Assembly (NCBI GenBank): GCA_028289465.1
Contig: JANQPM010000045.1
Location: 1 to 45,204 of the forward strand
Source: Lysobacterales bacterium
GTDB taxonomy: Bacteria > Pseudomonadota > Gammaproteobacteria > Xanthomonadales > SZUA-36
Direction of reading: 5' to 3'
DNA: 45,204 nt
The notes under the pieces were generated by a model. The model had not been told where the DNA came from, made no database searches, and saw only the letters and a list, made by a program, of their open reading frames with translations. The position numbers were made by a program, and so were the translations under genes. Within the stretch, counting starts at the first letter, position 1; every line of letters starts with the position of its first letter. Positions 10,713-25,785 of the stretch are shown piece by piece.

Positions 10713-12260
10713 ATGCACCAACCCAAGCACCGGTTCCCGCTTTTATTGATGGCTTTCATGCTGACTGGATTCGGTCCGGCACTATCTGCCCAGAGCGCTG
10801 ACAGCGGCGCATCCAATGAAGCGCAAACCCCATCAGGTACCGAGGCGGCTACTGAAACAGTCATCGACGTAGATGGTATGGCAGCCGAACCCGAAAGTCC
10901 GTTGGACACCGCGGAATCCATCGCCAATGAGCCATCTCCGAATACCGCTGCGACCGATGCCGGCGAAGCAGCGGAAGCGGAACTGATGCTGCAAATGGAC
11001 CGCATTGAAGCCAAGGCCACCTACGAGGCGCTGATTCGCGAAGAGAAGTATCACGAGGCTATCGCGGTCGCCGGCCAAACGCTGGAAATGACCGAACAGG
11101 AACTGGGTCGAGCGAGTTTCGAACTGGTGCCGATATTAAACGACCTCGGCTTAACGCTGATCGAAGCCGGCCAGCCCGAAGCCTCGCTGCAGCACTTCGA
11201 ACGCAGCGTTAAGCTGGTTGAAGACCATCATGGAATATTCAGCAGCGACCTGGTCACGCCGCTGCAGGGCACGGGGCTGGCCCTGCAGAAACTCGGCAAC
11301 CACGCCGGCGCGGTCAATCATTTTCACCGCGCACAGCATGTGACGCACCGCAATGAAGGTGTCGGCAATTTTTCGCAACTGCCGATCATGCAGATGGTGT
11401 CGGAAAGCCTGGAGGCGCAGCAATTGTATTCCGACGCCGAGCGGGTGCAGCGCGGCATGCTGAAAATCAATCGTATGAAATGGGGTGAAGACTCCCTGCA
11501 AATGGTTGATCCGTTAAAGGATCTGTCGGAATGGTACTACCGTTTCGCCGACTTCAATCAGGCCCGCTTTACTTATCGGAAAGCGGCCGAAATCCAGCTC
11601 GGCCATTTGCACCCCGATGTAGAGGACATGCGGTCGCTGCTGCATGAAATGGCCCTGGATTACTTTGATAAATTCGGTGGCTATTGGCTGAACGGTCGAC
11701 GCCTGAATGATCGGATTCTGTCCAAGACCCTGATCCATAACGGCACCACCGACGCGCATCGCGCGTATGCATTCGTCGCGATGGGCGATTTCTTTATCCA
11801 GGTGGACAAATCCAGGAATGCAGCAACCGCCTATCAGAAAGCATGGCAGCTCGCGCAGGCCTATAACATTGATTTCGCGTCTATGGATGTGGATCTGAGC
11901 AAACCTGAACAGCTTCATTTCGGACCGTCGCTGGTTTTCAATGAAAATGCGATCGAGAGCGGTACCGGGGAACCCTATTGCGAGTTCAACTTTTCAGTTG
12001 GCAGTGACGGCCGCCCGCGGCGAATCAAAGTCATCGAATGCAATCTGAAACCCAATGTACAGCGTTTTGCCATTCAGAATTTCAACCGCGCCCGGTTTCG
12101 GCCGATGATCGAAGACGGCACACCGGTGACCCGTGACAACGTCCATGTTCGGCGTGTCTACGTTCCGCGCGAGCTGATTAACAGTAAGCTGGACCAGGCC
12201 ATTCCGGCCCGCCCGATCGAACAGGAGGCTGTCGTCCCGGTCAAGGAACCGACGCCTTAG
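10713..12260 (+). CDS. Secreted TPR protein with TonB-like C-terminal domain
   Basis: This 515-residue protein begins with a signal peptide (LLLMAFMLTGFGPALSA, cleavage likely before QS). A Glu/Ala/Ser-rich linker covers about 30-95. A helical tetratricopeptide-type region follows (about 105-390), with repeats such as LIEAGQPEASLQHFERSV and LQKLGNHAGAVNHFHRAQ. The last part (about 420-495) matches the TonB C-terminal fold: YCEFNFSVGSDGRPRRIKVI, then FNRARFRPMIEDGTPV. The pair of cysteines at YCEF and IECN could form a disulfide. It lacks the N-terminal helix of true TonB, so it is probably free in the periplasm. It precedes the channel/vWA cluster and could be a partner, which is inference. 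Confidence 0.75.
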   Translation: MHQPKHRFPLLLMAFMLTGFGPALSAQSADSGASNEAQTPSGTEAATETVIDVDGMAAEPESPLDTAESIANEPSPNTAATDAGEAAEAELMLQMDRIEAKATYEALIREEKYHEAIAVAGQTLEMTEQELGRASFELVPILNDLGLTLIEAGQPEASLQHFERSVKLVEDHHGIFSSDLVTPLQGTGLALQKLGNHAGAVNHFHRAQHVTHRNEGVGNFSQLPIMQMVSESLEAQQLYSDAERVQRGMLKINRMKWGEDSLQMVDPLKDLSEWYYRFADFNQARFTYRKAAEIQLGHLHPDVEDMRSLLHEMALDYFDKFGGYWLNGRRLNDRILSKTLIHNGTTDAHRAYAFVAMGDFFIQVDKSRNAATAYQKAWQLAQAYNIDFASMDVDLSKPEQLHFGPSLVFNENAIESGTGEPYCEFNFSVGSDGRPRRIKVIECNLKPNVQRFAIQNFNRARFRPMIEDGTPVTRDNVHVRRVYVPRELINSKLDQAIPARPIEQEAVVPVKEPTP

Positions 12261-12282
12261 CGCAACAGCGAAGGAAACCGGC

Positions 12283-12942
12283 CTACGAGGACGACAGTAC
12301 GTTGCGCAACTGATCGCCCAGGCTCTTGCAGGATGCGCTCTTGGTTCGTGCCAGCACCGGTATCGGTACGACGATGGCCGTGACTACCGAGGTGCCGGTC
12401 GCCTCAGAACTGATGACACCGAGGGACCGGGACTCCTGCAAATCCCAAATGGTCGCTTCGTAGTCGGAATTGTTGTCCCAACTGAGCACGCCAAAGCAGC
12501 CACCACCTGCCGCGCTGAATGAACACGTCATATTCCCCTGCTTGTTAACGACCGCGGACTCGCCATGAATCCAGATCAGATAGCGTACGCCCAGCTCTTC
12601 GGTTTTTCCGGCGATTCGCGGGTCTTCTAGCAGCAGGCTCACGGCCTCCGGACGGCTCGGCGCCAGACGGGGCTCGAACCACGGAAACAGTGCGTCTTTG
12701 AACTGTTCCTCGTCGATCAGCACGATATCCTTTTTCAGCGGCTGCAGCCGGCTGTACAAACACTCGGTAAAACTCTTTTCCGCTTCGACCACCGCATCCT
12801 GCCGGTTGGTCAGCACGACCACCGCCTCACCGTCGCCAACAATCGGTGCCACAGTCATAAACTCTTCCACCGTGGTTGTCACACAACCGCAGAGCAAAGC
12901 CGGCGTTAAAAGCAGTGAAAATCTAATGGCATTCAAATTCAT
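12283..12942 (-). CDS. Predicted lipoprotein, unknown function
   Basis: A 219-residue protein with a lipoprotein signal (SLLLTPALLCGC, Cys about 20). The mature part starts VTTTVEEFMTVAPIVGDGE and contains GDGEAVVVLTNRQ and a cysteine-containing Gly-rich segment AAGGGCFGVLSWDNNSDYEA. The C-terminal hydrophobic stretch GTSVVTAIVVPIPVL may be a membrane hairpin or buried strand. I do not recognise the family. Its ATG overlaps the stop of the upstream lipoprotein gene (TAATG), so both are one transcript. That transcript diverges from the 13866 cluster, sharing its control region. Confidence 0.7.
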   Translation of the reverse strand: MNLNAIRFSLLLTPALLCGCVTTTVEEFMTVAPIVGDGEAVVVLTNRQDAVVEAEKSFTECLYSRLQPLKKDIVLIDEEQFKDALFPWFEPRLAPSRPEAVSLLLEDPRIAGKTEELGVRYLIWIHGESAVVNKQGNMTCSFSAAGGGCFGVLSWDNNSDYEATIWDLQESRSLGVISSEATGTSVVTAIVVPIPVLARTKSASCKSLGDQLRNVLSSS

Positions 12943-13574
12943 TATTCAGTCTCTCGCGCAACGGCTTCCGGCGGCCGCCACTCTTCTTTCAGTACGGCGG
13001 AATGGAATTCGCTGACCAGTGCCGCCGCGACATCTCTAAGCGCCATATTCGTCGCGTCGCTCAGCGGTTCCTTTTTGCTGACCAGTGCGCCGCGGTTCTT
13101 GCCGAACGCCACGAACGGCCAGTATCCGACCAGCCGGGTGTTTTCGTCATACACGCGAATATGGTACTTCAACGATACAGAGTAGAAATTGGTTGCGGTT
13201 TCGCCCGGCGTCAGGAAGGCGAAGTCCTCAAGCACCGGCACCAGTACCAGGTCCAAACCCGGCTGCGGAGCTTGCGAATCCGGATTTTCCACCAGCGACT
13301 TGGTCGTGAACATCGAGCTGAAAACCAGATCGAAAAGCCGCCGCTGTTCCACGCCCAGGCTGACGACAATATCTTCTTCGGCATAAGCGAAGCTGGAAAA
13401 ATCGGGGCTGTAGTGAACTCCCACATCGTAAGGCAGCCGCTCGACCAGCGGCTGTGGAAAATCTTCGCGCAACGCCAAAGTGGTCGAACCGCAAGCGGTG
13501 AGCAGCAGCATCGCGCAGATTGCCCAGGCCAGTCGAAGAAAGTAGTAGTGATTGTTGGCTATGCCGTTTTTCAA
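12942..13574 (-). CDS. Predicted lipoprotein, unknown function
   Basis: A 210-residue protein with signal peptide and lipobox LLLTACGST. The mature part starts with ALREDFPQPLVERLPYDVGV and has a central segment LDLVLVPVLEDFAFLTPGE followed by a beta-like region ending near GYWPFVAFGK. This pattern of an outer-membrane lipoprotein with alternating strands resembles small auxiliary lipoproteins of envelope complexes, but I cannot assign a named family. It is first in a two-gene operon with the 12283 gene. The start lies 291 bp from that of the divergent cluster gene at 13866. Confidence 0.7.
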   Translation of the reverse strand: MKNGIANNHYYFLRLAWAICAMLLLTACGSTTLALREDFPQPLVERLPYDVGVHYSPDFSSFAYAEEDIVVSLGVEQRRLFDLVFSSMFTTKSLVENPDSQAPQPGLDLVLVPVLEDFAFLTPGETATNFYSVSLKYHIRVYDENTRLVGYWPFVAFGKNRGALVSKKEPLSDATNMALRDVAAALVSEFHSAVLKEEWRPPEAVARETE

Positions 13575-13708
13575 AATTCGCTCCGGTTTTTTATCGGACC
13601 AGAATGGGCTGGTTCTGATTGCTAATTTACCGTAAATTCAGTGTCTGCCGGTGTTGCAATTCGTCTTATCGCAAGCTTGGCCCGCGGCAGCATCATGCTA
13701 ATACATTT

Positions 13709-13736
13709 TTAACAACAAAAGTACGAAAAATATAGT
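13709..13736 (+). promoter_or_regulatory. Strong candidate sigma-70 promoter of the central cluster
   Basis: TTAACA (13709-13714), a 16-bp spacer, and TATAGT (13731-13736), each one mismatch from consensus, inside an AT-rich tract that continues to about 13770. This leaves a leader of roughly 120 nt before the 13866 start. It is the best promoter seen for the cluster. The rest of 13575-13865 shows no gene. Confidence 0.6.
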
Positions 13737-13865
13737 ATATTAAACAAATTCAAGCAGATTGAAACAAATAGGGTCAATTCAGGGTCGTAATATCTAGGTC
13801 GGTAAACTGCCGCTCGGCGAAGACGAAAACGCCGTTCCCAGCGGGTCGCAACTGGAGCACGCAAC

Positions 13866-15002
13866 ATGCTGAAAAGAGGGAAAACCCATCTAACTCTCTG
13901 TATCTTGGGCGCATCTGCGCTGATATACGGCTGCGCAACACCTCAGATGTCAAGTTCGAGTACACCACCCAGCCCGCCGTCTCCAAGCGGTTCGCCAAGT
14001 TCGGCACCGCCATCGCCACCCAGCAGCCCGTCCTCGGGCTCACCGAGTTCCGCGCCGCCAAGTCCAAGCAGCGGCTCTTCAAGCAGTTCGGGCAATCCCA
14101 ACCCAAGTAATCCCAGCTCAGGTAATCCTAGCTCAAGTTCGGGTAGCCCCGGCAGCAGTTCACCCGGCGGCACCAGCCAGCCCGGTGGAACCGGTTCGGC
14201 GGGCGGCGCATCTTCCGATCCGGGGGCCAGCGGAATGCCGGGCGAATCAGCATCGGACTCCTCCGCCAATAGCGGCCAGACCGGCGGTAATGAGACAGAA
14301 TTGGATGTACTGGAACCCGAACCGGTGACCAGCGACAGCGACAACGCGATGGCGGACGCCAGCGATGCCGCCGGTGGATCTTCGGGCGGCGGCGCTGAAG
14401 GCGGCGGCAGCGATGGTGGCGGCGCCGATGGTGGCGGCCAGGAATCCAACGGTGCAATGGCCGATGCCGGCGGTGCGGCCGGCGGCGGCAGTGCCGGTGG
14501 TCAGGGATCGCTGGACGATCGTCTGAATGATTCCGTTCAGATATTCGAAAACGGCATGATGGAGCAGATTATCGTCATTGCGTCCTCCATTCCGGGCGGT
14601 GACTCGGACAGCCAGGGCGGCGACGATGAATTGCAGCCCGGCGAGGCGCCGCAGAACGGCAATGGCACCGCCGGTGGCGGCAGGGGCCTGGTCATCGTCG
14701 AAGGCGATGTATCGCAGCTTCCGTCAGCGGCAGGCAGCGCCCCGGGAGGCGGTGAAGACAATGCCAGCGGGGTTGTCGACCCGACCCAGTCTTCGGACGG
14801 CAGCACCGTGGAAAGCAGCCGTGAAGGCGATAACGCGGTACGCAGAATTCTGCTCGCGAAAATTCCCGACGACGTCGGTGACGGTTCGGACGACGATGTC
14901 GTCGCCCGGCAGATCAGAGAAGCGGCTATCAATGAAGAAGATCCGGCCCTCAGAGAAAAATTGTGGGAGGAATACCGCAATTACAAGAAATCGCTCAATT
15001 AA
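13866..15002 (+). CDS. Ser/Pro/Gly-rich low-complexity lipoprotein
   Basis: A 378-residue predicted lipoprotein: the signal ends in SALIYGC with Cys23. Residues about 28-115 are almost only Ser and Pro, then Ser/Gly/Asn, and a Gly-rich acidic segment follows to about 215. Such a stretch should be disordered and long enough to reach far through the periplasm or outside the cell. An ordered-looking part follows (LDDRLNDSVQIFENGMMEQI, IVIASSIPGG) and the protein ends in a charged helix, REAAINEEDPALREKLWEEY. The helix is a plausible docking element. Family not recognised. First gene of the collinear eight-gene cluster, downstream of the candidate promoter. Confidence 0.75.
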   Translation: MLKRGKTHLTLCILGASALIYGCATPQMSSSSTPPSPPSPSGSPSSAPPSPPSSPSSGSPSSAPPSPSSGSSSSSGNPNPSNPSSGNPSSSSGSPGSSSPGGTSQPGGTGSAGGASSDPGASGMPGESASDSSANSGQTGGNETELDVLEPEPVTSDSDNAMADASDAAGGSSGGGAEGGGSDGGGADGGGQESNGAMADAGGAAGGGSAGGQGSLDDRLNDSVQIFENGMMEQIIVIASSIPGGDSDSQGGDDELQPGEAPQNGNGTAGGGRGLVIVEGDVSQLPSAAGSAPGGGEDNASGVVDPTQSSDGSTVESSREGDNAVRRILLAKIPDDVGDGSDDDVVARQIREAAINEEDPALREKLWEEYRNYKKSLN

Positions 15003-15053
15003 GCGCGTAACCCGGTGCATCGCAGAGCAGCTGACACCGAAAGCGAGTTGTAG

Positions 15054-16295
15054 ATGACAGGAAAATCCAAAATACTGACCATTACCGCGCTGTTGCTGGT
15101 GGCTGGCAACATCGCATTCGCCGGCACCACGATAAAGAAGGTTAACGCCGTGCCGCTGGAATACGCCACCAGCGAACTGCCTGCCGAGGCGCTGCTGGAT
15201 ATCGGTCTAGGTGTGTTGGACCCAGGCGTTTCCGGTGATCTCGAAGACATCGAAAAACTACAGGAAAAGAATATCTACCCGAAAGTCCGGGAAGCGGAAG
15301 CGCGCTATATCCCCTATATGCTGCGCAACACGATCGAGCAAAGCAATCTCTGGGGTGCGGTACGCATGGTACCGGAGCAGGACCCGCTGAGCGAGGTCTA
15401 CCTCAACGGCCGCATTGTGAAATCCGACGGGACCGAGCTTCAGGTAGAAATCAGCGCCAGAGATGCGACCGGCCGACATTGGTTTACCAAGACTTACGAC
15501 GACATCGCGAGCAAATTCGCCTACCGCGATGACCTGCAGTATCCCGGGGATGTGTTTCAGGACATCTACAACCAGGTTGCCAACGACCTGTACCACTACC
15601 GGCAGAAACTCAACTCCGACCAATTGCACGAAATCCGTACCATCGCCAATTTGCGCTATGCCGCCGCGTTGTCTCCCGATGCGTTCGGCGAGCACCTGAA
15701 AACTGACAAGCGCGGCAATCTGAGAATCAATCGCCTGCCGGCGGATGATGACCCGATGATGCAGCGGGTGCAACGCATTCGGGAGAGCGAATATCTCTTC
15801 ATCGACACGGTGGATCAGCAGTTCGCGCGGTTTTTCCATGAGATGGATCCGTCCTATGACAACTGGCGCCGTTTCAGCTACGAGGAAATCATCGCCGAAC
15901 GGGAACTCAAGCGATCCTCCCGTATGCGCATGCTGGCTGGCGCTGCCGCCGTGGTCGGCGGAGCGGTAACCAGCAGCAAGGCGCGCACCCGAGTCGGCCA
16001 GGTAGTTGGCAATGCGGGCATCTTAGGCGGCGTCAGCGCACTCAGGCAGGGTTATGACGTGCGCAAGCAAGCGAAAATACACCAGACCGCGTTGCAGGAG
16101 CTGGCCGCGTCCTTCGATGCAGAAATCGAACCCATTGTGATTGATGTCCAGGGAGAAGTCGTGAAACTCAACGGCACGCTGGATGCGCAATACAAGGAAT
16201 GGCGTGACATTCTGCGTCAGATCTATGCCGAAGAACTGGGGTTGCCGCAAGGCACATCAGTCAATGAGGAATTCACTAGCCAACTTGAACAGTAG
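15054..16295 (+). CDS. Periplasmic protein of the cluster, unknown function
   Basis: A 413-residue protein with a cleavable signal peptide (ILTITALLLVAGNIAFA, then GTTIKK). The N-terminal half (about 25-190) alternates strands and helices, with motifs YIPYMLRNTIEQSNLWGAVR and EVYLNGRIVKSDGTELQVEI. A Gly/Ala-rich stretch (MLAGAAAVVGGAVTSSKA and VVGNAGILGGVSAL, about 290-335) could be a hydrophobic hairpin. The C-terminal helix includes LQELAASFDAEIEPIVIDVQ. No family recognised. It follows the lipoprotein gene by 51 bp and is followed by a GC hairpin without a T-run (16303-16321), so read-through into the pseudokinase gene is likely. Confidence 0.7.
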   Translation: MTGKSKILTITALLLVAGNIAFAGTTIKKVNAVPLEYATSELPAEALLDIGLGVLDPGVSGDLEDIEKLQEKNIYPKVREAEARYIPYMLRNTIEQSNLWGAVRMVPEQDPLSEVYLNGRIVKSDGTELQVEISARDATGRHWFTKTYDDIASKFAYRDDLQYPGDVFQDIYNQVANDLYHYRQKLNSDQLHEIRTIANLRYAAALSPDAFGEHLKTDKRGNLRINRLPADDDPMMQRVQRIRESEYLFIDTVDQQFARFFHEMDPSYDNWRRFSYEEIIAERELKRSSRMRMLAGAAAVVGGAVTSSKARTRVGQVVGNAGILGGVSALRQGYDVRKQAKIHQTALQELAASFDAEIEPIVIDVQGEVVKLNGTLDAQYKEWRDILRQIYAEELGLPQGTSVNEEFTSQLEQ

Positions 16296-16360
16296 CAATC
16301 CGGGGCCGAAGCGCGGCCCCGTCCGTTCTCATCCCAAACACGAACCTAGTGGAGGTCTGC

Positions 16361-18589
16361 GTGGCTGCAGCAGAGCCGGGCACGCTTAAGCCCGGAAAAA
16401 CCATCGACCGCTACCGGCTGGTACAGAACCTGTCCGGCACCGGCCTGTGGACCAGCTGGCTCGCCACGGATAGCAGCGACGGACAGCAGTATGTGGTCAA
16501 GCTGACCGCAGCCGAGCGGGACGATCGCCGGCTGGTTGGTTATCGCGAACGGCTGGAAACGCTGACAAACCTCGCTCATCCCGCGCTGGCCTTGCCGTCA
16601 AGAGTCTTTTACGATCAGGGTTTCCTGGCCTATGCAAGGTGCTACCAGGAACAGGACGGTCTGTCCGAAGCCCCGGCTGCCGATCTGCACGAACGCATCA
16701 ACCACGCCATTCGCATCGCCGAGGCGCTGCATGTACTGCACCGCAGCGATCTCACGCACGGTGCGGTAAGCAGTGCCAATATTCGTATCGGCGACAACGT
16801 TCGGCTGGTGGATATTCGGCTTGACAGTCACGGCGGCGAGCGCGACGACCTGACCGGTTTTGCCGAAGTGATCACACAATGGCTGCAGGACCTGCCCGAC
16901 GACCACCCCCGCTACGCCGACGGCCTGCTGCAGTTGCCGCCGCGGCTGTCGCAGTTGCAGGCCGCATTCACCAACGCATTGGAAAACCAGGCGCCTCTGC
17001 CGTCCGCACTGCAAATCCGGGACGCACTGGAGGATGCCAAACTGCAGTGGCAGCGCATGCGCACCGAGACAGTCATTCCCACGACCCCTGAGGACCATGA
17101 CCTCGATGCGCTGCCGTGGGCAAACCCGCCCGCCGCCACTGCAGCCACAAGCGCTGCGCCGGCAACCGGCCGTCGCCGGACGGGTGTGATCGCCGGTCTC
17201 GGCCTGTTGCTGGTCGGTGCCCTGCTGGCGGTGGTGGTGTGGCTGCCGAAGCTGGTCGAACAACCGACCGCGCCGACAGTATCCAGCCCGCCCGTCCAGA
17301 AAACGGCTGCCGAAGAACCGGCCGAACCGGAACCGCTGACCGAAGAACAACTCGCGCAATTGTTTAATGAACGGGAAGAGGCGCAGGCGGTACTGGACGA
17401 TTTGATTCAACTTCGTCTGGAACTGGACGCGCGAAAGGTAACGCTGTGGGCAAACAAGGCATTCGAACAGGCGCTGACCGTGAAGGCAGCCGGCGATCAG
17501 GCATTCCGGGATCAGCAGTTCGTCGATGCGAGCCAGCACTACCGGCAGGCGCTGGACCAGATGACTGCGATTCAAGACCGTACGCAGGCCGTCATCGACA
17601 CCGCACTGGCCGATGGCTGGGCCGCGTTTGACCGCGGCGATGCCGAAGCGGCCAAACGCCATTTCGGTCTGGTGCTGGAAATTGATGCGGAACATTCAGA
17701 TGCGCTGAACGGGATGCGGCGTGCAGAAACCCTGGACCAGGTGCTTGAACTGGCCGAGCAGGCACAACGCGCCGAAAAGGAAGAGCTGTGGGCAGACGCG
17801 CGAAGCTACTATCGAGACATCATGAACTTGGATCCGGATACCGACGGCGTTGAAGCTGCGATTGAGCGCCTGACCGGCATTATCAACAACATCGCTTTCC
17901 AGGATCATATGTCGGATGGCTTGTCGGCACTGGATGCGGGGCGGCTGGCAGCGGCCGAAAGCGCATTCCTGGCCGCACGGCGCCTCAAGCCGGGCAGTGC
18001 CGGGCCGTCAGAAGGCCTGCAGGAAATCAACCGCCGGCGCAAGGAATCCGGACTGCAGCAGCACAGATCCCAGATTCTGACCCTGGAGCGCGAAGAGAAC
18101 TGGGCCGAAGCCACGGCCGGTTATCAACGCCTGCTGGACAAGGATCCAAACCTGCAATTCGCCAAAGACGGTATCGTCGAAGCGAGAGAGAGAGCCGCAT
18201 TGGATGCCGCTTTGCAAAACCGGCTGCAGCTCCCCGAACGCTGGTGGAACGCCGAAGGGCGCAACGAGGTCAGCGCCCTGCTGGCCGAAGCCAGGGCGAT
18301 TCGCAGCGGCGGTCCGAAGCTGCAGCGGCAGATCACAGAACTGGACCGCGCGCTGGACCAGGCAAAGCGCCAGGTCAGCCTGTACCTGCAGTCCGACACG
18401 TTATGCGATGTGGTCGTTTACAAAGTCGCCCGGCTGGGTCAGTTCGAAAGTACCGAATTGCAACTGTACCCGGGGCGCTACACCGTGGTCGGCACCCGAG
18501 ACGGCTTTCGCGATGTGCGCAAGGACGTGCTGGTTTCGCCTTCACCCGGCCAGCAGTCCGTGGAAATACGATGCAATGATGAAGTCTGA
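16361..18589 (+). CDS. Membrane pseudokinase with TPR-like and PEGA-like periplasmic part
   Basis: GTG at 16361 follows the GGAGG ribosome site at 16351-16355 with 5-bp spacing; the earlier GTG at 16349 overlaps that site, so the protein is 742 residues. Residues about 15-240 have a Ser/Thr-kinase fold layout: IDRYRLVQNLSGTG in place of the Gly loop, Lys47 in YVVKL, and HGAVSSANIRI (133-143) in place of the HRDLKPxN loop. The catalytic Asp is Ala135, while Asn140 is kept, and DFG is DIR (151-153). It should bind without phosphorylating. One helix (about 275-297) leads to a periplasmic coiled-coil/TPR-like region (about 310-640) and a C-terminal PEGA-like domain (LYLQSDTLCDVVVYKV, YPGRYTVVGTRDGFRDVR). 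Confidence 0.75.
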   Translation: MAAAEPGTLKPGKTIDRYRLVQNLSGTGLWTSWLATDSSDGQQYVVKLTAAERDDRRLVGYRERLETLTNLAHPALALPSRVFYDQGFLAYARCYQEQDGLSEAPAADLHERINHAIRIAEALHVLHRSDLTHGAVSSANIRIGDNVRLVDIRLDSHGGERDDLTGFAEVITQWLQDLPDDHPRYADGLLQLPPRLSQLQAAFTNALENQAPLPSALQIRDALEDAKLQWQRMRTETVIPTTPEDHDLDALPWANPPAATAATSAAPATGRRRTGVIAGLGLLLVGALLAVVVWLPKLVEQPTAPTVSSPPVQKTAAEEPAEPEPLTEEQLAQLFNEREEAQAVLDDLIQLRLELDARKVTLWANKAFEQALTVKAAGDQAFRDQQFVDASQHYRQALDQMTAIQDRTQAVIDTALADGWAAFDRGDAEAAKRHFGLVLEIDAEHSDALNGMRRAETLDQVLELAEQAQRAEKEELWADARSYYRDIMNLDPDTDGVEAAIERLTGIINNIAFQDHMSDGLSALDAGRLAAAESAFLAARRLKPGSAGPSEGLQEINRRRKESGLQQHRSQILTLEREENWAEATAGYQRLLDKDPNLQFAKDGIVEARERAALDAALQNRLQLPERWWNAEGRNEVSALLAEARAIRSGGPKLQRQITELDRALDQAKRQVSLYLQSDTLCDVVVYKVARLGQFESTELQLYPGRYTVVGTRDGFRDVRKDVLVSPSPGQQSVEIRCNDEV

Positions 18590-18633
18590 AACGATGCGGT
18601 GGCCAATCATCGGTGAATGACCAAAGGCAGCGA

Positions 18634-20733
18634 ATGACAGAACAGCCACAAGAATACACGGCGCCATCCAGCAGTACCTCGTCGGCCAACCCGGTTATTA
18701 CACCGGTTGCGTTCGAACCGCGCTCGGGCGCTCACCGCCGCCGCAGCCCGCAGCGCTGGCTTACTTTCGGCGCGTTGGGATTGCTGCTGCTGCTGGGCAC
18801 CGCCGCGGTGTATCTGTTCACCGGGCAATCGGTGCTGATCGAATTCGATCCGAGAGCGGACAATATTGAAGTCGACGGCGCGCTGATCACTTTCAAGCTG
18901 GGCGATCGCTGGCTGCTGCATTCAGGGGAATATACGGTCGGCGCGGAAAAAGCCGGTTACCACCCGTTCGAAAATACGATTACGGTCACCGATGCCGGCG
19001 AGCAGGAGTTTCTGTTCAGCCTGGACAAACTGCCCGGTTATCTTTTCGTCAGCACCGATCCCGAGACAACCGCCGAGATTCGGGTCGACGGTCAGAGCCT
19101 GGGGGCCGCTCCGCTGCAAAACCACGAGCTGCCCACCGGCAGCTACCAGCTCGAAATTCGAGCCGAGCGCTATCAGCCCTACGCTGCGGATATCGACATC
19201 GAAGGGCTCGGCAAAACGCATGAAATCGTCGCCCAACTGGAACCCGGCTGGTCCGAGGTCACGTTGAATTCCAACCCGGAAGGCGCGCAGCTATGGGTGG
19301 CTGACGAAAATCTCGGCACTACGCCGCTGACTGCCGAGGTGCTGATGGGTTCGCGCACGCTGGAATTGCGTCTGCCCGGTTACAAAACCTGGACAACGGA
19401 ACTCCTGGTATCCGACAACCAGCCGCGGCTGTTGCCGTCGGTGAATCTGGAAAAAGCCGACAATCTGGTCCGGCTCAGCAGCCGGCCAAGCCAGGCCAGC
19501 GTGTCAGTGAACGGCGACTACCGCGGCCAGACACCGCTGGAACTGGAACTACCGCCCGGCCGTGAATACCAGTTCCGATTCAGCAAGGCGGGATACCAGT
19601 CGGCGCGCCGCAGCTTGCTGGTCGAAGAAGCCAGCGATGCCCGCCTGAGCGTCAATCTGACGCCGATTCTGGGCCAGGTGCTGGTCAACGGCAGCCCGGC
19701 GGATGCAGATGTCTATATCGAAGGCGTGCGGCGCGGCAACTTGAACCAGACTTACGAACTGCCGGCCCGGCCACACCGCATTGAAGTCCGCAAACCGGGC
19801 TATCTGAGCTATTCCACATCGCTGACCCCGAACCCCGATCTCGCGCAACGCATCGACGTCAAGCTGACCAGCGAAGAAGCCGCCCGACAGGCCAGAACCC
19901 CGAGCCTGGTTACTGCGGCTAACGGGTATGCAATGCAGTTGATTCGGCCATCCGGACGCATTGTGCTGGGCAGCCCGCGACGGGAACAGGGCAGGCAGGC
20001 CAACGAAGTACAGCGCCAGGTCGAGCTGCGGCGGGCGTTTTATATCGGCGTGCGCGAAATCAGCAACGCGCAGATCAAAGCCTACCGCACCAGTCACGAT
20101 TCCGGTGTGGCCGGCGAGCAGACACTGTCGCTGGATGAACAGCCGGCGGTGCGGATATCCTGGGATGACGCCGCACGATTTGCAAACTGGCTCAGCGGTA
20201 TGGACGGCCTGCCCTTCGCCTATCAGGAAAAAGACGGTGTGATGCAGGCTGTACAGCCGATGACCACCGGCTACCGGCTGCCGACAGAAGCAGAATGGGT
20301 GCTGGCAGCCCGTTACGAGGGCGACACCAACAACCGGGCGGCCAAACGCTATCCCTGGGGTAGTGCACTGCCGCCGCCTTCCGGGGCCGGTAATTTCGCC
20401 GGTTCGGAGAGTACCGATCTGGTGCAGCGGGTGATCAGCAACTACCGGGACGGCCAGCCGGCATCCGCACCGGTCGGGCAATTTAACAGCAATAATCTCG
20501 GTCTTTATGATCTGGGTGGCAATGTGCGAGAGTGGATTCATGATTACTACAGCGTCGGCGGTGTCAGTGGCGTGCCGGTCGACCCGCTGGGCCCGAAAAA
20601 CGGCAGCGCACACGTGGTGCGTGGATCCAGCTGGCGCAGCGGCGCAATCACCGATCTGAGGCTGGCCTGGCGCGGCCAGGGCAGCGACGGGCGTGACGAT
20701 ATCGGCTTCCGGCTGGTCCGGTACGCCGAATGA
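18634..20733 (+). CDS. Membrane PEGA-repeat protein with SUMF1-type domain lacking cysteine
   Basis: ATG at 18634 has AAAGG 6-7 bp upstream; a GTG at 18613 is an alternative. The protein is about 699 residues: a short Ser-rich cytoplasmic tail, one helix (WLTFGALGLLLLLGTAAVYL, about 43-62), then about five PEGA-type repeats. Examples are IRVDGQSLGAAPL, LWVADENLGTTPL and VSVNGDYRGQTPL, each ending in a GY-like turn. The C-terminal ~230 residues are a formylglycine-generating-enzyme (SUMF1) fold: GYRLPTEAEWVLAARYEG, LYDLGGNVREWIHDYY, VVRGSSWRSG, DIGFRLVR. The catalytic cysteine pair is absent and the whole protein has no cysteine, so it is probably a ligand- or protein-binding domain exposed to the periplasm. 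Confidence 0.85.
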   Translation: MTEQPQEYTAPSSSTSSANPVITPVAFEPRSGAHRRRSPQRWLTFGALGLLLLLGTAAVYLFTGQSVLIEFDPRADNIEVDGALITFKLGDRWLLHSGEYTVGAEKAGYHPFENTITVTDAGEQEFLFSLDKLPGYLFVSTDPETTAEIRVDGQSLGAAPLQNHELPTGSYQLEIRAERYQPYAADIDIEGLGKTHEIVAQLEPGWSEVTLNSNPEGAQLWVADENLGTTPLTAEVLMGSRTLELRLPGYKTWTTELLVSDNQPRLLPSVNLEKADNLVRLSSRPSQASVSVNGDYRGQTPLELELPPGREYQFRFSKAGYQSARRSLLVEEASDARLSVNLTPILGQVLVNGSPADADVYIEGVRRGNLNQTYELPARPHRIEVRKPGYLSYSTSLTPNPDLAQRIDVKLTSEEAARQARTPSLVTAANGYAMQLIRPSGRIVLGSPRREQGRQANEVQRQVELRRAFYIGVREISNAQIKAYRTSHDSGVAGEQTLSLDEQPAVRISWDDAARFANWLSGMDGLPFAYQEKDGVMQAVQPMTTGYRLPTEAEWVLAARYEGDTNNRAAKRYPWGSALPPPSGAGNFAGSESTDLVQRVISNYRDGQPASAPVGQFNSNNLGLYDLGGNVREWIHDYYSVGGVSGVPVDPLGPKNGSAHVVRGSSWRSGAITDLRLAWRGQGSDGRDDIGFRLVRYAE

Positions 20734-20742
20734 GGGAATACG

Positions 20743-21045
20743 ATGAACACTAGATATCTGCTGGTACTGTTGGCTTTATTCGGCACCGTGGCGGCACAGG
20801 AAAACCCGCCGACGGATGAGCAGAATACCGAAACCGCTGACCAGGCACCGCCAGCACCTGTGGAAGAAGATGGGCTGGAAAGCCTGACTGGCGAGGAAAC
20901 CGATGCGGAAGTGACAGCCGGAGAAGTGACCACCGGAGAAGCAACCGCCGGAAATGAACAGCAGCGTCAGGGCAACCTGGAACGCTTTAAGCCGTCAGAA
21001 GAAATTTCGCTGGACCGGTCAGTGGCGTTTCCTAACGACATTTAA
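20743..21045 (+). CDS. Small secreted acidic protein of the cluster
   Basis: A 100-residue protein with signal peptide (YLLVLLALFGTVAAQ). The mature part is acidic and Thr/Glu/Ala-rich (disordered), with a distinctive C-terminal end FKPSEEISLDRSVAFPNDI. The GAGGGA ribosome site lies close before its ATG. It follows the PEGA-SUMF1 gene by 9 bp and is then separated from the channel gene by the repeat block. I recognise no family. Its conserved-looking tail suggests a short docking peptide, which is inference. Confidence 0.65.
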   Translation: MNTRYLLVLLALFGTVAAQENPPTDEQNTETADQAPPAPVEEDGLESLTGEETDAEVTAGEVTTGEATAGNEQQRQGNLERFKPSEEISLDRSVAFPNDI

Positions 21046-21050
21046 TGGGA

Positions 21051-21375
21051 GTGGTTTTTGGCGCTTCTTACGCCTGCGGCGTAAACCGCACCAAAAACCA
21101 CGGCATAAATTTGCGCTGGCGCGCAGCGGAGTTTATGAGGTGAAGCCGTTGAGAGATGGTGGCAGTGGTTTGAGGTTGACGGGCGCTTCTTACGCCTGCG
21201 ATGTAAACCGCACCAAGAACCACGGCATAAATTTGCGCTGGCGCGCAGCGGAGTTTTATGAGGTGAAACCGTTGAGAGACGGTGGCAGTGGTTTGAGGTT
21301 GACGGGCGCTTCTTACGCCTGCGGTGTAAACCGCACCAAAAACCACCGCGTAAATTTACGCGCAGCGGAGACATG
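21051..21375 (+). repeat. 2.6-copy tandem repeat of about 122 bp with nested hairpins
   Basis: Units start at 21061, 21183 and 21306 (122 and 123 bp, then a partial copy of about 65 bp). Copies differ by a few bases (for example GCGGC, GCGAT and GCGGT in the same spot). The first copy begins with an 11-bp perfect stem: GTGGTTTTTGG (21051-21061) with CCAAAAACCAC (21091-21101). It encloses TTACGCC-TGC-GGCGTAA (21068-21084). The block fills most of the gap between the small secreted protein gene and the channel gene. Open frames through it repeat with the DNA and are not credible genes. It may be a structured mRNA element or the footprint of a dispersed repeat family. Confidence 0.85.
21347..21362. 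promoter_or_regulatory. 16-bp perfect palindrome upstream of the channel gene
   Basis: CGCGTAAATTTACGCG, in the diverged last partial repeat, 90 bp before the 21452 start. Its symmetry suits a dimeric repressor or activator site, but no regulator gene is nearby. The 21376-21451 stretch contains no clear promoter. Confidence 0.35.
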
Positions 21376-21451
21376 AAGGATTTTAAGTGTCGCGGTTAAG
21401 TGCGGCTGCGAGGATTTTGAAAAAGATTTAGGCTATTCGGGAATTTATGAT

Positions 21452-22279
21452 ATGGCTGCAACTATGGAAACACACTCGGCGCTGAGGAAAACTTTTCCGT
21501 TTGAGTTTTTCTATCAGATATTTGCGCTGATCGTCTCGTTCATCGCCGTGCATACGGTATATGTCACGCTGGTACGGCCGTCCGCCAGCCGGCTGCTGCA
21601 GGAACAGGCGGTGAAGATTGCGGAGGATCCGACCTTTGTGCCGGAGCGCTCGGTCTTTGTGCTGATCAAGGACTTCGAGCAGGAGGCATGCTTCGTACTG
21701 CTGTTCTGGGCCATTGCAATCATGGCCTACAAAGCCGTACAGGCCTATCGGGAACGCAGCCTGCTCGAGCGGGACCTGATTCCGCTTAGCGAAGGCATCA
21801 GCATTCTTCCCGAGGACAGCCGGGAGTATTCCCGGCCGATTCAGGCATTGGGCACAAAAGAACGTGACTATCTACTGCCGCGCACCCTGCTGACTTCCCT
21901 GCACCGGTTCCGTTCGACGCGGGATATCCAAAGCGTCGCATCCACTGCCCGCGAGATGAGCGAATCGGAATCGGAAAGGCTGGAGTCCGAGCTGTCGATG
22001 GTGCGCTATATCGCATGGGCGATTCCATCCATTGGATTTATCGGCACGGTAAGAGGCATCGGCGCGGCGCTGGCTCAGGCGCATAAAGCCGTCGAGGGCG
22101 ATATCACCGGCGTTACCTCCAACCTGGGGGTTGCGTTTAACTCCACCTTCATTGCACTGGTGCTGTCTATTATTCTGATGTTTCTGCTGCATCAGCTTCA
22201 GTTAATGCAAGAACGCCTGGTACTGGACAATCAGGAGTACGTGGAAGAACACCTGATAGCCAAGTTGCGCGAAGACTAG
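21452..22279 (+). CDS. MotA/TolQ/ExbB-type proton channel subunit
   Basis: A 275-residue inner-membrane protein. Helices are at about 16-41, 77-97, 186-206 and 222-247, with a cytoplasmic region between the second and third. The family signature GFIGTVRGIGAALAQ (195-209) and the last helix FNSTFIALVLSIILMFLLHQL mark the MotA/TolQ/ExbB superfamily, whose pentamers use the proton gradient to move a dimeric partner helix. ATG at 21452 has only a weak ribosome site. The two vWA proteins downstream have ExbD-like first helices and are the likely partners. Canonical tonB and exbD genes are absent nearby. Confidence 0.9.
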   Translation: MAATMETHSALRKTFPFEFFYQIFALIVSFIAVHTVYVTLVRPSASRLLQEQAVKIAEDPTFVPERSVFVLIKDFEQEACFVLLFWAIAIMAYKAVQAYRERSLLERDLIPLSEGISILPEDSREYSRPIQALGTKERDYLLPRTLLTSLHRFRSTRDIQSVASTAREMSESESERLESELSMVRYIAWAIPSIGFIGTVRGIGAALAQAHKAVEGDITGVTSNLGVAFNSTFIALVLSIILMFLLHQLQLMQERLVLDNQEYVEEHLIAKLRED

Positions 22280-22288
22280 TGCGCTCAT

Positions 22289-22327
22289 TTCAATGAACCC
22301 GCTTCAGTAACCCTGCTTCAATGACCC
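22289..22327 (+). repeat. Threefold microrepeat at the 22321 start codon
   Basis: TTCAATGAACCC, TTCAGTAACCC and TTCAATGACCC occur in series about 14 bp apart, the last containing the start codon of the 22321 gene. Probably a local slippage duplication; it leaves no strong ribosome site. Confidence 0.4.
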
Positions 22328-23661
22328 TCATACTGGACATTAATGACACTGGACTGCGGCTGTTCCGCGGCCAGGATCTGCTGCAGGTCAGTCCGGGGTT
22401 TGTCACCGTGCTGAACAAGACCGCCGCAACCGGGCATGAAGCGCAGCAGCAGGCCAGGCGACATCCAATTCAGACCGAATCCCGTTTCTGGGATCAATTC
22501 TCTCAGGACCGGCTGGCACAACCCAATCGCCTGGCGCTGACACATGCCGATCTGGCCTATCACCATCTGAATGCGCTGTCGGCGGATATCGGCGATGCAC
22601 CGGTGGCGCTGGCCGTGCCGGGCGACTGGTCCACCGAACAGCTCGGTTTGATCGCCGGCATATGCCAGGCGCTGAACTGGAACCTCGCAGCCATGGTCGA
22701 TCAGGCAATCGCGGCCGCTGACCGGCCCTACCCCGGCCGGCAACTGTTTTATCTTGATCTGCATCTGCATCGCGCGGTGTTAACCGCTTTGGAACAGGGC
22801 CAGCAGTTGATTCGACAACAGGTCGTCAGCAGCCGCGAGATGGGCCTGACACGGCTGCGGGAAGCGTGCGCCGAAGCGATTACCCGGCTGTTCATTCAGC
22901 GTACCCGATTTGATCCGCTGCACGACGCCGAGGTCGAGCAGCAACTGCATGACAAGCTGGAAACCTGGCTGGACGAAGTTCAGCATAGCGATTCGCTGGA
23001 ACTGGAGCTGACTCAGCACGACAACCGCTTTACCACCCGACTCAACCTGGACCAGGTGATTAACGCGGCCAGACCGCATTACCGGCGCCTGGCGCGTTTC
23101 TTAAACGCCAATCTGCCGGCCGACCGGCCCTGTACGCTGCTGGTGTCGCAGCGCATGGCCCGCCTGCCGGGCATGATGGCCCGTCTGACCGCTCTGCCGC
23201 AGACCGATGTGGTCATCGCGGCCGAAGACGCGGTAGCGGTCGGTGCGGCCGAAGCAATTGCCAATGCCGGTGCCGACGGCCCGATCACGCATATACTGCA
23301 CCGCCCATGGTTGCAGGATACCGATCTCGAGGCGCACCAAAGCCGCCTGCGGGCCTTTCACCGTGAGCAGCCGACCCATATTCTGTACCGCAATCGAGCC
23401 TACCCGCTGAGCCGACAAGGGCTGTGGATCGGCAATGGCAGCGCGGACATCTCGCTGGGCGAAGGCATTGCCGACGTCGACGAGCGCCATTGCCGCTTGA
23501 GCCTGAACGCCGGTCAGGCGGTGATTACTGACGCCAGCGACGGCAAGACCCGCATCAACCGCCAGCCGTTGGAAGGCGAACTCGAAGTGGGGGTCGGAGA
23601 TCGCATCGGTATCGGCCGGCCGCAAGTGGAATTGCTGCTGATTCGAGTGGAAGGAAGCTAG
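22321..23661 (+). CDS. Actin/Hsp70-like ATPase-fold protein with C-terminal FHA-like domain
   Basis: This 446-residue cytoplasmic protein starts LILDINDTGLRLFRG, which resembles the first phosphate loop of the actin/Hsp70/PilM fold in weakened form. It continues with a second-phosphate-loop-like segment (LFYLDLHLHRAVLTAL, about 140-155) and AVPGDWSTEQLGLIAGICQALN, typical of the fold. From about 355 the sequence YPLSRQGLWIGNGSADISLG, DERHCRLSLNAGQAVITDAS and TRINRQPLEGE looks like an FHA domain, which binds phosphothreonine peptides. Nucleotide-binding residues look degenerate, so ATPase activity is uncertain. No strong ribosome site. It sits 41 bp after the channel gene and 3 bp before the first vWA gene. 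Confidence 0.65.
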   Translation: MTLILDINDTGLRLFRGQDLLQVSPGFVTVLNKTAATGHEAQQQARRHPIQTESRFWDQFSQDRLAQPNRLALTHADLAYHHLNALSADIGDAPVALAVPGDWSTEQLGLIAGICQALNWNLAAMVDQAIAAADRPYPGRQLFYLDLHLHRAVLTALEQGQQLIRQQVVSSREMGLTRLREACAEAITRLFIQRTRFDPLHDAEVEQQLHDKLETWLDEVQHSDSLELELTQHDNRFTTRLNLDQVINAARPHYRRLARFLNANLPADRPCTLLVSQRMARLPGMMARLTALPQTDVVIAAEDAVAVGAAEAIANAGADGPITHILHRPWLQDTDLEAHQSRLRAFHREQPTHILYRNRAYPLSRQGLWIGNGSADISLGEGIADVDERHCRLSLNAGQAVITDASDGKTRINRQPLEGELEVGVGDRIGIGRPQVELLLIRVEGS

Positions 23662-23664
23662 GCC

Positions 23665-24756
23665 GTGGCCCGCAGAAAGCGCGAAACCAATGTCTACAGT
23701 ATGTCCTTTCTGGACATCATGGCCTGCGGTTTCGGCGCGATCATTCTGTTCTTTGTAATCATCCAGCATGCGACCGAAGACCGCACCGACGATCTGACGG
23801 CCGACCTGTCCGGCGAGGTCAACCGGCTGGAAACCGAAGTGGCGCTGGAAGAGCTGAACCGGGCCAAACTGCAACAATCCATCGATGAAATTGAACAGGA
23901 AATCGTCACCTCGCAGGCAGAAGCCGACCGCATGCTTGAAGAAGTGACCGACAGCCAGGACGCACTGACCGAACAGGAACAGGAAACCGCCGCGCGGCGC
24001 GAACACTTCAATCAACTGGTGACCGATATCCAGGCCATCGAGGAGCGGCTGAAGGAAATACAGGCCGAGCAGGAACTGGGCGGCGAGGACGTGCGCAACT
24101 TTTACGGCAGCGGCGATCGGCAGTACCTGACCGGCGTCAACGTCGGCGGCCAGCGCATAATGATACTGCTGGACGCGTCCGCCTCGATGCTGGATGAGAC
24201 CATCGTCAATATCATTCGCCGGCGGCACCTGCCGGACCGGCAGAAGCGCCGGGCCGACAAATGGCAGCGAGCCCTGCTGACCGTGGAGTGGATCACCACG
24301 CAGTTCCCGGAAACCTCCGAATTTCAGATTTACACCTTCAACACCCGCGCCGACCCGGTGTTGAAAGATACGCGCGGCGAGTGGCTCAAGGTCGATCAGG
24401 GCCGCCTGCTGGACAACGCAGTCGACGCACTGCGCGAACGCGTGCCCGAAAACGGCACCCGCCTGCATGCGGTGGTTGAAGCAATCAACGACATGAATCC
24501 GCTGCCGGATAATATTTTCCTGATCATCGACAGCCTGCCGACCCAGGGCGAATCGCCGCCACGCGGGCCGGGCACGGTCGACAGCCGGCGCCGGCAGCGT
24601 TTTTTTGACGACGCCGTGCGGGAGCTGCCCCGGGGCGTGCCGATCAATGTCGTACTGTTTCCGATGGAAGGCGATCCGCTGGCCTCCAGCGAGTACTGGA
24701 AACTGGCGGTCCGTACCGGCGGTTCGTTTATGAGCCCGTCCAAGGACTGGCCGTAA
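23665..24756 (+). CDS. vWA protein with ExbD-like N-terminal helix (first copy)
   Basis: A 363-residue protein with GTG start, GGAAGGAAG ribosome site and almost no gap to the preceding gene. Residues 13-35 (MSFLDIMACGFGAIILFFVI) form one helix with Asp17 at the position of the essential ExbD aspartate (TPFIDVMLV in E. coli ExbD). Residues about 40-135 are a Glu-rich coiled coil. The vWA domain follows (about 160-350), with the metal-site motifs DASAS (170-174), a Thr in GTRLHAVVEAI and the Asp in LIIDSLPTQG. No signal peptide other than the helix, so the vWA head is in the periplasm. Proposed channel stator; metal-ligand binding is inferred. Confidence 0.8.
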   Translation: MARRKRETNVYSMSFLDIMACGFGAIILFFVIIQHATEDRTDDLTADLSGEVNRLETEVALEELNRAKLQQSIDEIEQEIVTSQAEADRMLEEVTDSQDALTEQEQETAARREHFNQLVTDIQAIEERLKEIQAEQELGGEDVRNFYGSGDRQYLTGVNVGGQRIMILLDASASMLDETIVNIIRRRHLPDRQKRRADKWQRALLTVEWITTQFPETSEFQIYTFNTRADPVLKDTRGEWLKVDQGRLLDNAVDALRERVPENGTRLHAVVEAINDMNPLPDNIFLIIDSLPTQGESPPRGPGTVDSRRRQRFFDDAVRELPRGVPINVVLFPMEGDPLASSEYWKLAVRTGGSFMSPSKDWP

Positions 24757-24786
24757 ACAGCGGATCAAACGAGGTGAGTTAATGCG

Positions 24787-25785
24787 GTGAAAAAGAAAAA
24801 ACGCACAGTAGAAACAACCAGCCTATCGTTCCTGGACGCGATAGCCTGTGGTTTCGGCGCGATTATTCTGTTGCTGGTCATCGTCAAAACCGCGCAGCCG
24901 ATGATTCTGGAGCAGACGCGCGTAGACCTGGAAGGCATCGTCGCACAGTTGCAGCAGCAATTGGTCAAAATCCGCGGTGAAACCACGGTATTGGACCGTA
25001 CCCTGAACACCGTCGAACAGGAACAGCTGACGCTGGAAGAACGCGTGGCCCGTATGCGTCGCCTGCTGGAACAACTACGCGGGCAATTCGATTCCTCCGG
25101 TGACGATAACCGGGCGATCGCGGCACTGGAAAAACAACTGGAGGCGGCGCGTCAGGAACTGAACGAGGCGCAGCAGCGCTTCGAATACAAGAAACCGTTT
25201 GAAGACACCACGGTCGGCGGCATTCCGGTCGACAGCGAATACATCATCTTCATCATCGACACCTCCGGCAGCATGTATAACTTTGCCTGGGATCTGGTAC
25301 TGAAGAAAATCGAAGAGACGCTGGACGTACACCCGACCGTGCTCGGTATCCAGGTACTAAACGACATGGGTGAATATATGTTCCCGCGCTTTGCCAACCG
25401 CTGGATACCCGATACGCCGGCGCGCCGGCAGGCCATCATTCAGCGCTTAAGAACCTGGAATGCGTTTTCCAACTCCAGCCCGGTGGAAGGCATCAACAAG
25501 GCCATCAGTACCTTCTATGCCGCGGACAAGAAAATCAGCCTGTACGTGTTCGGCGACGAATTCACCGGCCATTCCATCGACGAAGTGGTCGGCACCGTGG
25601 ATAAGATCAACCGCGTTACCGCCCGTGGCGAGCGCCTGGTGCGGATTCATGCCGTCGGCTTTCCGGTGCAGTTCATGCGCCCGGCGCCGCAGCAAACCAC
25701 CGGCATCCGCTTCGCAACGCTGATGCGCATCCTCAGTCAGCGTAACGGCGGCACCTTTGTCGGGCTGAATTCGCACCGGCCTTAG
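24787..25785 (+). CDS. vWA protein with ExbD-like N-terminal helix (second copy)
   Basis: A 332-residue protein with GTG start preceded by GAGGTGA, 9 bp away; the earlier ATG at 24782 runs into a stop. The layout matches the first copy: helix 13-35 (LSFLDAIACGFGAIILLLVI) with Asp17, coiled coil about 40-135, and a vWA domain with DTSGS (158-162). The second metal-site Thr position looks like Ser (FSNSSPVEGINKA); the last Asp may be in YVFGDEFTG. Two paralogous stators of the same channel suggest a heterodimer, since ExbBD and MotAB complexes use a dimer in a pentamer. Last gene of the cluster. No terminator seen downstream; 25786-25866 is empty. Confidence 0.8.
   Translation: MKKKKRTVETTSLSFLDAIACGFGAIILLLVIVKTAQPMILEQTRVDLEGIVAQLQQQLVKIRGETTVLDRTLNTVEQEQLTLEERVARMRRLLEQLRGQFDSSGDDNRAIAALEKQLEAARQELNEAQQRFEYKKPFEDTTVGGIPVDSEYIIFIIDTSGSMYNFAWDLVLKKIEETLDVHPTVLGIQVLNDMGEYMFPRFANRWIPDTPARRQAIIQRLRTWNAFSNSSPVEGINKAISTFYAADKKISLYVFGDEFTGHSIDEVVGTVDKINRVTARGERLVRIHAVGFPVQFMRPAPQQTTGIRFATLMRILSQRNGGTFVGLNSHRP

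Follow-up and report, generated by a model that had tools for sequence, protein, structure and literature searches.

In the present study, a 45,204-nucleotide stretch of DNA from a Lysobacterales bacterium was analysed (positions 1 to 45,204 of the forward strand of contig JANQPM010000045.1, assembly GCA_028289465.1; hereafter the window), and we propose that nine plus-strand genes at 13866-25785 probably encode most of a conserved, chromosomal trans-envelope machine comprising about a dozen proteins, with an ion-driven inner-membrane motor of the 5:2 class, the paired arms of which, bearing von Willebrand factor A (vWA) domains, would work on the cell envelope. The genes are arranged in the order lipoprotein, putative CsgG/FlgT-like protein, (kinase-)TPR protein, PEGA/FGE protein, small secreted protein, TolQ-like channel, Hsp70-FHA protein, vWA1 and vWA2, with intergenic gaps of 3 to 53 bases, except for 406 bases 5' of the channel gene; together with three upstream genes, the extended operon covers 10713-25785 (Table 1). 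To a preliminary description, made from the sequence alone, this block looked like an ion-powered machine of the envelope that carries vWA heads, is probably native and differs from Zorya and Tol/Ton, and the results obtained herein support that view. All of the genes it named lie on the plus strand, within 21 bases of the starts it gave, and two of these starts, 16361 and 18634, become 16349 and 18613 when upstream GTG codons are used. Its title counted eight genes where its own list had nine, and the extent it assigned, correct for the listed genes, overlooked three upstream parts (a TPR-TonB_C protein and two lipoproteins, D1 and D2), so the operon is larger.

A co-inherited operon with a TolQ-like channel and two vWA proteins

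The center of the operon is formed by the channel and the two vWA proteins. The channel reaches 55.3 bits against PF01618 (cut-off 22.9), and the threonines T199, T222 and T232, together with a FIGTVRGIG-type motif, are kept across 21 homologues. Both vWA proteins have a basic N-terminal tail and then a single hydrophobic helix with an invariant Asp17 in an FLD...CG.GA context (codons 23713-23715 in vWA1 and 24835-24837 in vWA2). In vWA1, the metal ion-dependent adhesion site (MIDAS) DASAS is encoded at 24172-24186 and the MIDAS series is intact, with D170, S172, S174 and D289 invariant and T265 nearly so; matches to VWA_2 and VWA_3 were observed in 16 and 12 of the 18 family members, respectively. 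In vWA2, DTSGS is encoded at 25258-25272, D17, D158, S160 and S162 are invariant, and DxSxS and D257 are kept. The vWA2 profile aligns with that of vWA1 over the full length (hhalign 99.7%, E 2e-26), and because of this alignment and the DxSxS motif the earlier assignment of two vWA proteins stands; the channel, the PEGA-SUMF1 protein and the Hsp70/actin-like FHA protein had also been recognized correctly. When compared with PDB sequences, the profiles of both vWA proteins retrieved coiled coils only, and those of the channel, the CsgG/FlgT-like protein, D1 and D2 retrieved nothing meaningful. A phylogenetic tree separates vWA1 from vWA2 as sister clades, both with full support; thus, the mixed pair is ancestral and older than all of the sampled lineages. 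Five ExbD-family genes were found in the genome (genome-level statements herein refer to targeted searches), none of them on this contig. The corresponding helix reads LIDIV, MLDIV, LIDMV or YIDVM in the ExbD/TolR-type proteins examined, and its Asp matches the position in FLDIM/FLDAI of the vWA proteins. Because Asp17 is invariant in both vWA proteins, the pore-type threonines are invariant and no ExbD/TolR gene lies on the contig, the most likely arrangement is a 5:2 ion motor with a heterologous axle made of one vWA1 and one vWA2.

The genes cluster far beyond chance. Relatives were gathered through channel and vWA1 searches of genomes, which returned at least 579 relatives of vWA1, and 80 loci from named organisms or metagenome-assembled genomes (MAGs) were taken from these matches. 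The carriers include Chromatocurvus, Microbulbifer, Pseudohaliea, Parahaliea, Kineobactrum, Woeseia and many Halieaceae; Microbulbifer, Chromatocurvus and Parahaliea (loci L111, L107 and L128) are cultured marine carriers. Seven core families (the lipoprotein, the CsgG/FlgT-like protein at 15054, the TPR protein, the PEGA-FGE protein, the channel, vWA1 and vWA2) share one order and strand in 57 of the 58 complete loci, namely those with enough flanking sequence. As these loci were mostly chosen through vWA1, the independent test is the genome-wide match: a survey of 274 genomes of the class found a channel at E<1e-50 in 20 genomes and vWA1 at E<1e-80 in precisely these 20 and no others, and in one of them the channel and vWA genes are on different contigs (L081 and L195). 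The preliminary description had suggested a co-occurrence check and would have given up its proposal if the genes rarely co-occurred, which was not seen. In another class of the phylum, the channel was present in 13 genomes of one family, and six regions from that class contain the bare seven-gene core, the accessory genes being absent. For six core genes, the between-locus distance matrices correlate at 0.79-0.94, compared with at most 0.33 in permutations. No relatives of vWA2 were found in plasmid, phage and viral-contig collections or, using blastn, in E. coli genomes, and on these grounds a mobile-element origin was rejected.

Clustering of the neighboring genes adds four families to this set. 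Members of the TPR-TonB_C family occur in 32 loci and precede the operon on the same strand in 30 of these; the family profile finds the window protein at E 6e-54. D1 was observed in 48 loci, 45 of them downstream on the same strand and mostly directly 3' of vWA2, with an invariant lipobox Cys28, and D2 in 32 loci, mostly directly 3' of D1, with 34-42% identity and 32 invariant columns, including the lipobox Cys20; neither matched a Pfam family. The fourth family, an M48 (BepA-like) metalloprotease lipoprotein, follows these genes and often closes the extended operon (L152:13592-15043 and 31 other loci); no M48 gene was found beside the operon in the window, and its closest counterpart in the rest of the genome has 35% identity. 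Several loci differ in arrangement or label. In a MAG labelled Myxococcales (L097:7779-19791), the operon is split into convergent halves, channel-FHA-vWA1-vWA2 and PEGA-kinase-CsgG/FlgT-like protein-lipoprotein. The labels of this carrier and of L092, L096, L114, L141, L118 and L137 include Acidobacteria, Myxococcales, Vicinamibacteria, Desulfatiglandales and Klebsiella MAGs, which may be misbinned or misnamed gammaproteobacteria.

The proposed machine and its parts

From the observed gene set, gene order, co-inheritance, conserved residues and single-chain folds, we infer the stoichiometry, rotation, partners and cell function as follows. The TolQ-like channel would be a ring of five subunits enclosing two helices, one each from vWA1 and vWA2, the two Asp17 residues would load ions facing the threonine ring of the channel, and ion flow would rotate or pull the mixed vWA1/vWA2 axle. 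The axle would continue as ~100 residues of coiled coil and end in two vWA heads that reach the periplasm and stand in for the peptidoglycan-binding or ExbD-type heads of known motors. These heads might act on partners from the same operon, namely the CsgG/FlgT-like protein, the outer-membrane lipoproteins and the PEGA stalk, the FGE head of which is PorK/GldK-like and non-catalytic; the MIDAS sites of the vWA heads might hold the disordered lipoprotein by its conserved, acidic C-terminal helix. The kinase/TPR and Hsp70-FHA proteins at the inner membrane might serve assembly or phospho-regulation. Mechanical work on the outer membrane is the most likely role in the cell, as a chromosomal housekeeping function, e.g. 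the tethering, movement or assembly of components. We also consider it possible, if somewhat doubtful, that the operon represents a separate machine class, with a seven-gene core that arose before at least two proteobacterial classes diverged, a vWA heterodimer as the axle, its metal sites holding an acidic lipoprotein helix, a periplasmic ring of a PorK-like FGE head and a CsgG/FlgT-like lipoprotein, and cytoplasmic control of the phosphorylation type.

Several points weigh against the proposed machine. Most known motors of the 5:2 class use two identical axle subunits, and here the subunits differ. No Pfam vWA match at E<=0.001 was obtained for any of the 31 vWA2 members. Which partner the vWA heads engage is conjecture, the CsgG/FlgT-like match of the protein at 15054 is moderate, and the high correlations between the distance matrices partly reflect shared species history.

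Table 1. Features of the extended operon in the window. Domain and profile values are E-values; TM, transmembrane; AF2, AlphaFold 2; pLDDT, predicted local distance difference test.
Feature	Position	Strand	Length (aa)	Evidence
Exported TPR protein with TonB C-terminal-like domain	10713..12260	+	515	Pfam TPR_12 7e-13, TonB_C 1e-4
Lipoprotein D2, divergent in the window	12283..12942	-	219	Profile 5e-79
Lipoprotein D1, divergent in the window	12942..13574	-	210	Profile 5e-58
Disordered lipoprotein, conserved C-terminal motif	13866..15002	+	378	Lipobox LIYGC
Periplasmic or outer-membrane-anchored protein (CsgG/FlgT-like)	15054..16295	+	413	AF2 pLDDT 86
Membrane protein: kinase-like N domain, one TM helix (~276-305, hydropathy), periplasmic TPR	16349..18589	+	746	TPR 4e-5
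Membrane-anchored PEGA stalk with C-terminal FGE/SUMF1 domain	18613..20733	+	706	PEGA 1e-48, FGE/SUMF1 1e-37
Small secreted protein	20743..21045	+	100	Conserved C-terminal peptide F.PSE.IS.D.SV.FP.DI-COOH
Three tandem copies of a ~122 bp repeat	21060..21379	+		Gap between small-protein gene and channel gene
MotA/TolQ/ExbB-type channel subunit, three hydrophobic segments (hydropathy)	21452..22279	+	275	MotA_ExbB (PF01618) 7e-15
Cytoplasmic Hsp70-type nucleotide-binding fold with C-terminal FHA	22321..23661	+	446	AF2 pLDDT 93
vWA1: Asp17 at TM helix start, coiled coil, vWA domain	23665..24756	+	363	VWA_3 4e-5
vWA2: Asp17, coiled coil, vWA-like domain	24787..25785	+	332	Profile kinship to vWA1, invariant residues

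Among the periplasmic and outer-membrane parts, the disordered lipoprotein varies in length and has a variable, Gly/Ser/Ala-rich middle. Its motif DDDVVARQIREAA..EEDP.LREKLWEEYRNYK lies ~36 residues from the C terminus, matches the strict pattern in 63 of 67 homologues, occurs as a close variant in three of the other four and is also present in another class. In the model of the protein at 15054, a putative CsgG/FlgT/PelC/TolB-N-like domain (~30-190) is combined with a long hairpin of helices (234-357), the tip of which is Gly-rich. Residues 30-190 resemble the LPHT ring, FlgT, PelC, CsgG and the TolB N-domain at moderate VIA Z values of 8.5-6.5 (best Foldseek E 2.8e-3); no Pfam family was matched, and a lipobox is present in most relatives. 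On the PEGA-FGE protein, an extra N-terminal FHA-looking domain was observed at L106:6510-8912, L122:6488-8893 and L095:5064-7526 (Pfam E 0.05 in one), and the separate Hsp70-FHA gene is missing from L106 and L122. With a strict pattern, the peptide of the small secreted protein was detected in 21 of 84 loci, where it forms the very C terminus.

On the cytoplasmic side, the preliminary description had called the product of the gene at 16349 a membrane pseudokinase. This holds for the window protein, which has kinase-type PADLOC matches (7e-9) and no Pfam kinase match, and which does not keep the full set of VAIK Lys, HRD Asp and DFG Asp, HGAVSSAN replacing HRD....N. It does not hold throughout the family: only 19 of 80 homologues have the kinase-like domain, which is thus an optional extension at the N terminus, nine of these 19 keep the HRD Asp, and a clear Pkinase domain (E 1e-39) is present in some relatives. 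The AF2 model of the protein at 22321 matches the DnaK nucleotide-binding domain over 319 residues (VIA Z 29.5, root-mean-square deviation 3.0), and its FHA domain was identified by Pfam (1.3e-5) and by profile comparison with FHA structures (5.5e-6). As judged by inspection, the protein does not retain the Gly-rich phosphate loops of Hsp70, and therefore the use of ATP is doubtful; the gene is present in 47 of 58 loci. Distant channels with 25-26% identity stand beside vWA and PP2C phosphatase genes at L086:9494-18952 and L087:7513-10750, the former locus also encoding FHA-proteases and a PEGA-containing Ser/Thr kinase. These cousins would represent a phospho-regulated relative of the present system. 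The comparison suggests that control by phosphorylation has long accompanied such motors and that the FHA and kinase-like parts observed here would be its remnants.

Elsewhere in the window, the operon neighbors are, by sequence, uvrA, obg and a murJ/mviN-like gene, and no Rfam families were found. No further copy of the ~122 bp repeat exists elsewhere in the genome, and the three tandem copies are possibly regulatory or a recent expansion. The G+C content is 47% in the first 2 kb of the window and 51-62% elsewhere; a 327 aa protein without a Pfam family is encoded at this AT-rich start (234-1217, minus strand).

Comparison with known ion-driven systems

A TolQ-like channel linked to heterologous vWA pairs has been reported. 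According to one section and a legend of a 2025 article in Mol Biol Evol (PMC12204202), TPH-vWA/TolQ systems, found across Proteobacteria with an Idiomarina query, combine a TolQ-like channel with heterologous vWA pairs that carry a TolR/ExbD-like Asp helix, without tolR or exbD; AF3 models place the Asp pair inside a threonine ring, and the function of the family is unknown. Compared by these described features, the operon agrees with that family: the TolQ-like gene is tightly linked to the vWA genes, the vWA pair is heterologous (here as two fully supported sister clades), the Asp of the transmembrane helix and the channel threonines are conserved, and no tolR or exbD gene stands beside the channel, the five ExbD matches of the genome lying on other contigs. 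The same section and legend do not name genes for PEGA-FGE, TPR/kinase, Hsp70-FHA, CsgG/FlgT-like, lipoprotein or small secreted proteins. In the open-access full-text literature, excluding preprints and supplements, PMC12204202 was the sole match for the motor-vWA pair, and none was obtained for the whole operon. The preliminary description had stated that the combination was not described in any system; this needs to be corrected for the channel and the vWA pair, and for the wider operon it agrees with the section and legend of that article.

The presence of a TolQ-type channel raises the question of whether the operon encodes a Tol-Pal-like machine that stabilizes or constricts the outer membrane and is partly redundant with Tol-Pal, which we regard as rather doubtful. 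A TolB-N-like domain among the fold matches, several lipoproteins of the outer-membrane type, the TonB_C-domain TPR protein and the M48 metalloprotease adjoining in 32 loci would fit such a machine. However, the genome has its own ybgC-tolQ-tolR-tolA...pal cluster (contig C30), and therefore the operon is not its replacement; moreover, the operon is without a TolA/Pal-like gene, the channel is missing from most of the class at strong E, and it obtained 28.8 bits against the TolQ model, for which the cut-off is 221. A curated TolQ/ExbB identity of the channel was dropped, as the scores are far below the cut-off. The channel family, the Asp-bearing helix and the trans-envelope lipoproteins are shared with Tol-Pal and ExbBD-TonB, and a TolB-N-like fold may be, but those systems have TolR/ExbD domains where vWA heads on a hetero-pair axle are found here, and the operon has no TolA/TonB or Pal. 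The FGE domain directs attention to the type IX secretion system (T9SS) of Bacteroidota. Its top NCBIfam match is PorK/GldK (E 3.5e-23), as in three relatives, and the PorK/GldK FGE fold is a non-enzymatic docking hub by cryo-electron microscopy (PMC12421860). In the window protein, the catalytic Cys pair of the FGE active site near the C terminus is absent, with RGSSW....I..LR in its place. A gammaproteobacterial analogue of the T9SS/gliding drive, in which the motor pushes an FGE-type PEGA ring or track and thereby moves or exports surface proteins, would agree with this nearest match, with the pairing of an ion motor and a non-catalytic FGE fold in the T9SS (PMC12421860) and with a putative CsgG/FlgT-like fold, which is typical of ring formers. 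Nevertheless, such a drive is unlikely: besides FGE matches of the GldK/GldJ type, no convincing T9SS family was found in the operon proteins, the FGE protein is anchored in the inner membrane through its PEGA stalk and is not an outer-membrane lipoprotein, and no conserved exported-substrate gene was observed among the neighbors. The PorL, PorM, PorN and Sov families are not among the matches of the operon proteins, to which this search was confined, the rest of the genome not having been searched. A T9SS identity, raised by the GldK matches, was dropped, as the scores are far below the equivalog cut-off of 350 (82.6 bits in the window, 99.1 and 116.9 in relatives) and no other convincing T9SS family is present in the operon. 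The operon and PorLM/PorKN would share an ion-driven motor beside a non-catalytic FGE-fold protein but differ in the vWA domains of the axle heads and in the inner-membrane PEGA stalk that carries the FGE domain here.

The AglRQS/Glt machinery of Myxococcus also has an ion motor with two different small partners (AglR and AglS), and FHA and TPR proteins belong to the wider complex. Except for the FGE match to Bacteroidota GldK/GldJ, no convincing gliding-family match was found in the operon, and the Myxococcus vWA protein is the surface adhesin CglB, in contrast to the proposed axle here. A Zorya-type motor for anti-phage defence would fit the 5:2-type channel class and the weak ZorA-model matches (E 4e-5), and some defence systems are stable on chromosomes. 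Yet no ZorB, ZorC, ZorD or ZorE match was found by PADLOC in the nine operon proteins, vWA heads take the place of the ZorB head, and the operon is fixed across species with correlated inheritance, next to uvrA, obg and a murJ/mviN-like gene. Because of this chromosomal fixity, the housekeeping neighbors and the lack of relatives in plasmids, phages or viral contigs, a defence role is disfavored and seems very improbable; Zorya membership was rejected, as the weak ZorA-model matches stand alone and the partners and any mobile-element association are absent. The channel might finally act as an ion-gated sensor and not as a force machine, informing the kinase/FHA proteins about membrane energy or contact with the envelope. 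The kinase-like and FHA parts would be compatible with a sensor, as would the distant cousins in which genes for PP2C and a true Ser/Thr kinase adjoin those of the channel and a vWA protein, but the kinase domain and the Hsp70-FHA protein are optional, whereas the channel, both vWA proteins, the PEGA-FGE protein, the TPR protein and the lipoprotein are fixed, so that we consider a sensor improbable compared with the proposed force-producing machine.

Implications

The novel findings of the present study are the wider operon, the FGE domain nearest to PorK/GldK, the putative CsgG/FlgT-like fold, the Hsp70-FHA fold, the C-terminal motif of the lipoprotein and the phosphatase/kinase-linked cousins. 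Known 5:2 motors power flagella, Tol, Ton, the T9SS, gliding and Zorya, and each solved a long-standing puzzle once its partners were known. The present operon would be a clean case of an obligate hetero-pair axle, with vWA domains serving as motor heads. Moreover, it provides the parts list missing from the 2025 report on the motor-vWA pair, comprising lipoproteins, an FGE head, a CsgG/FlgT-like protein and conserved, putative docking peptides, and the function of the machine is therefore testable in the cultured marine carriers.

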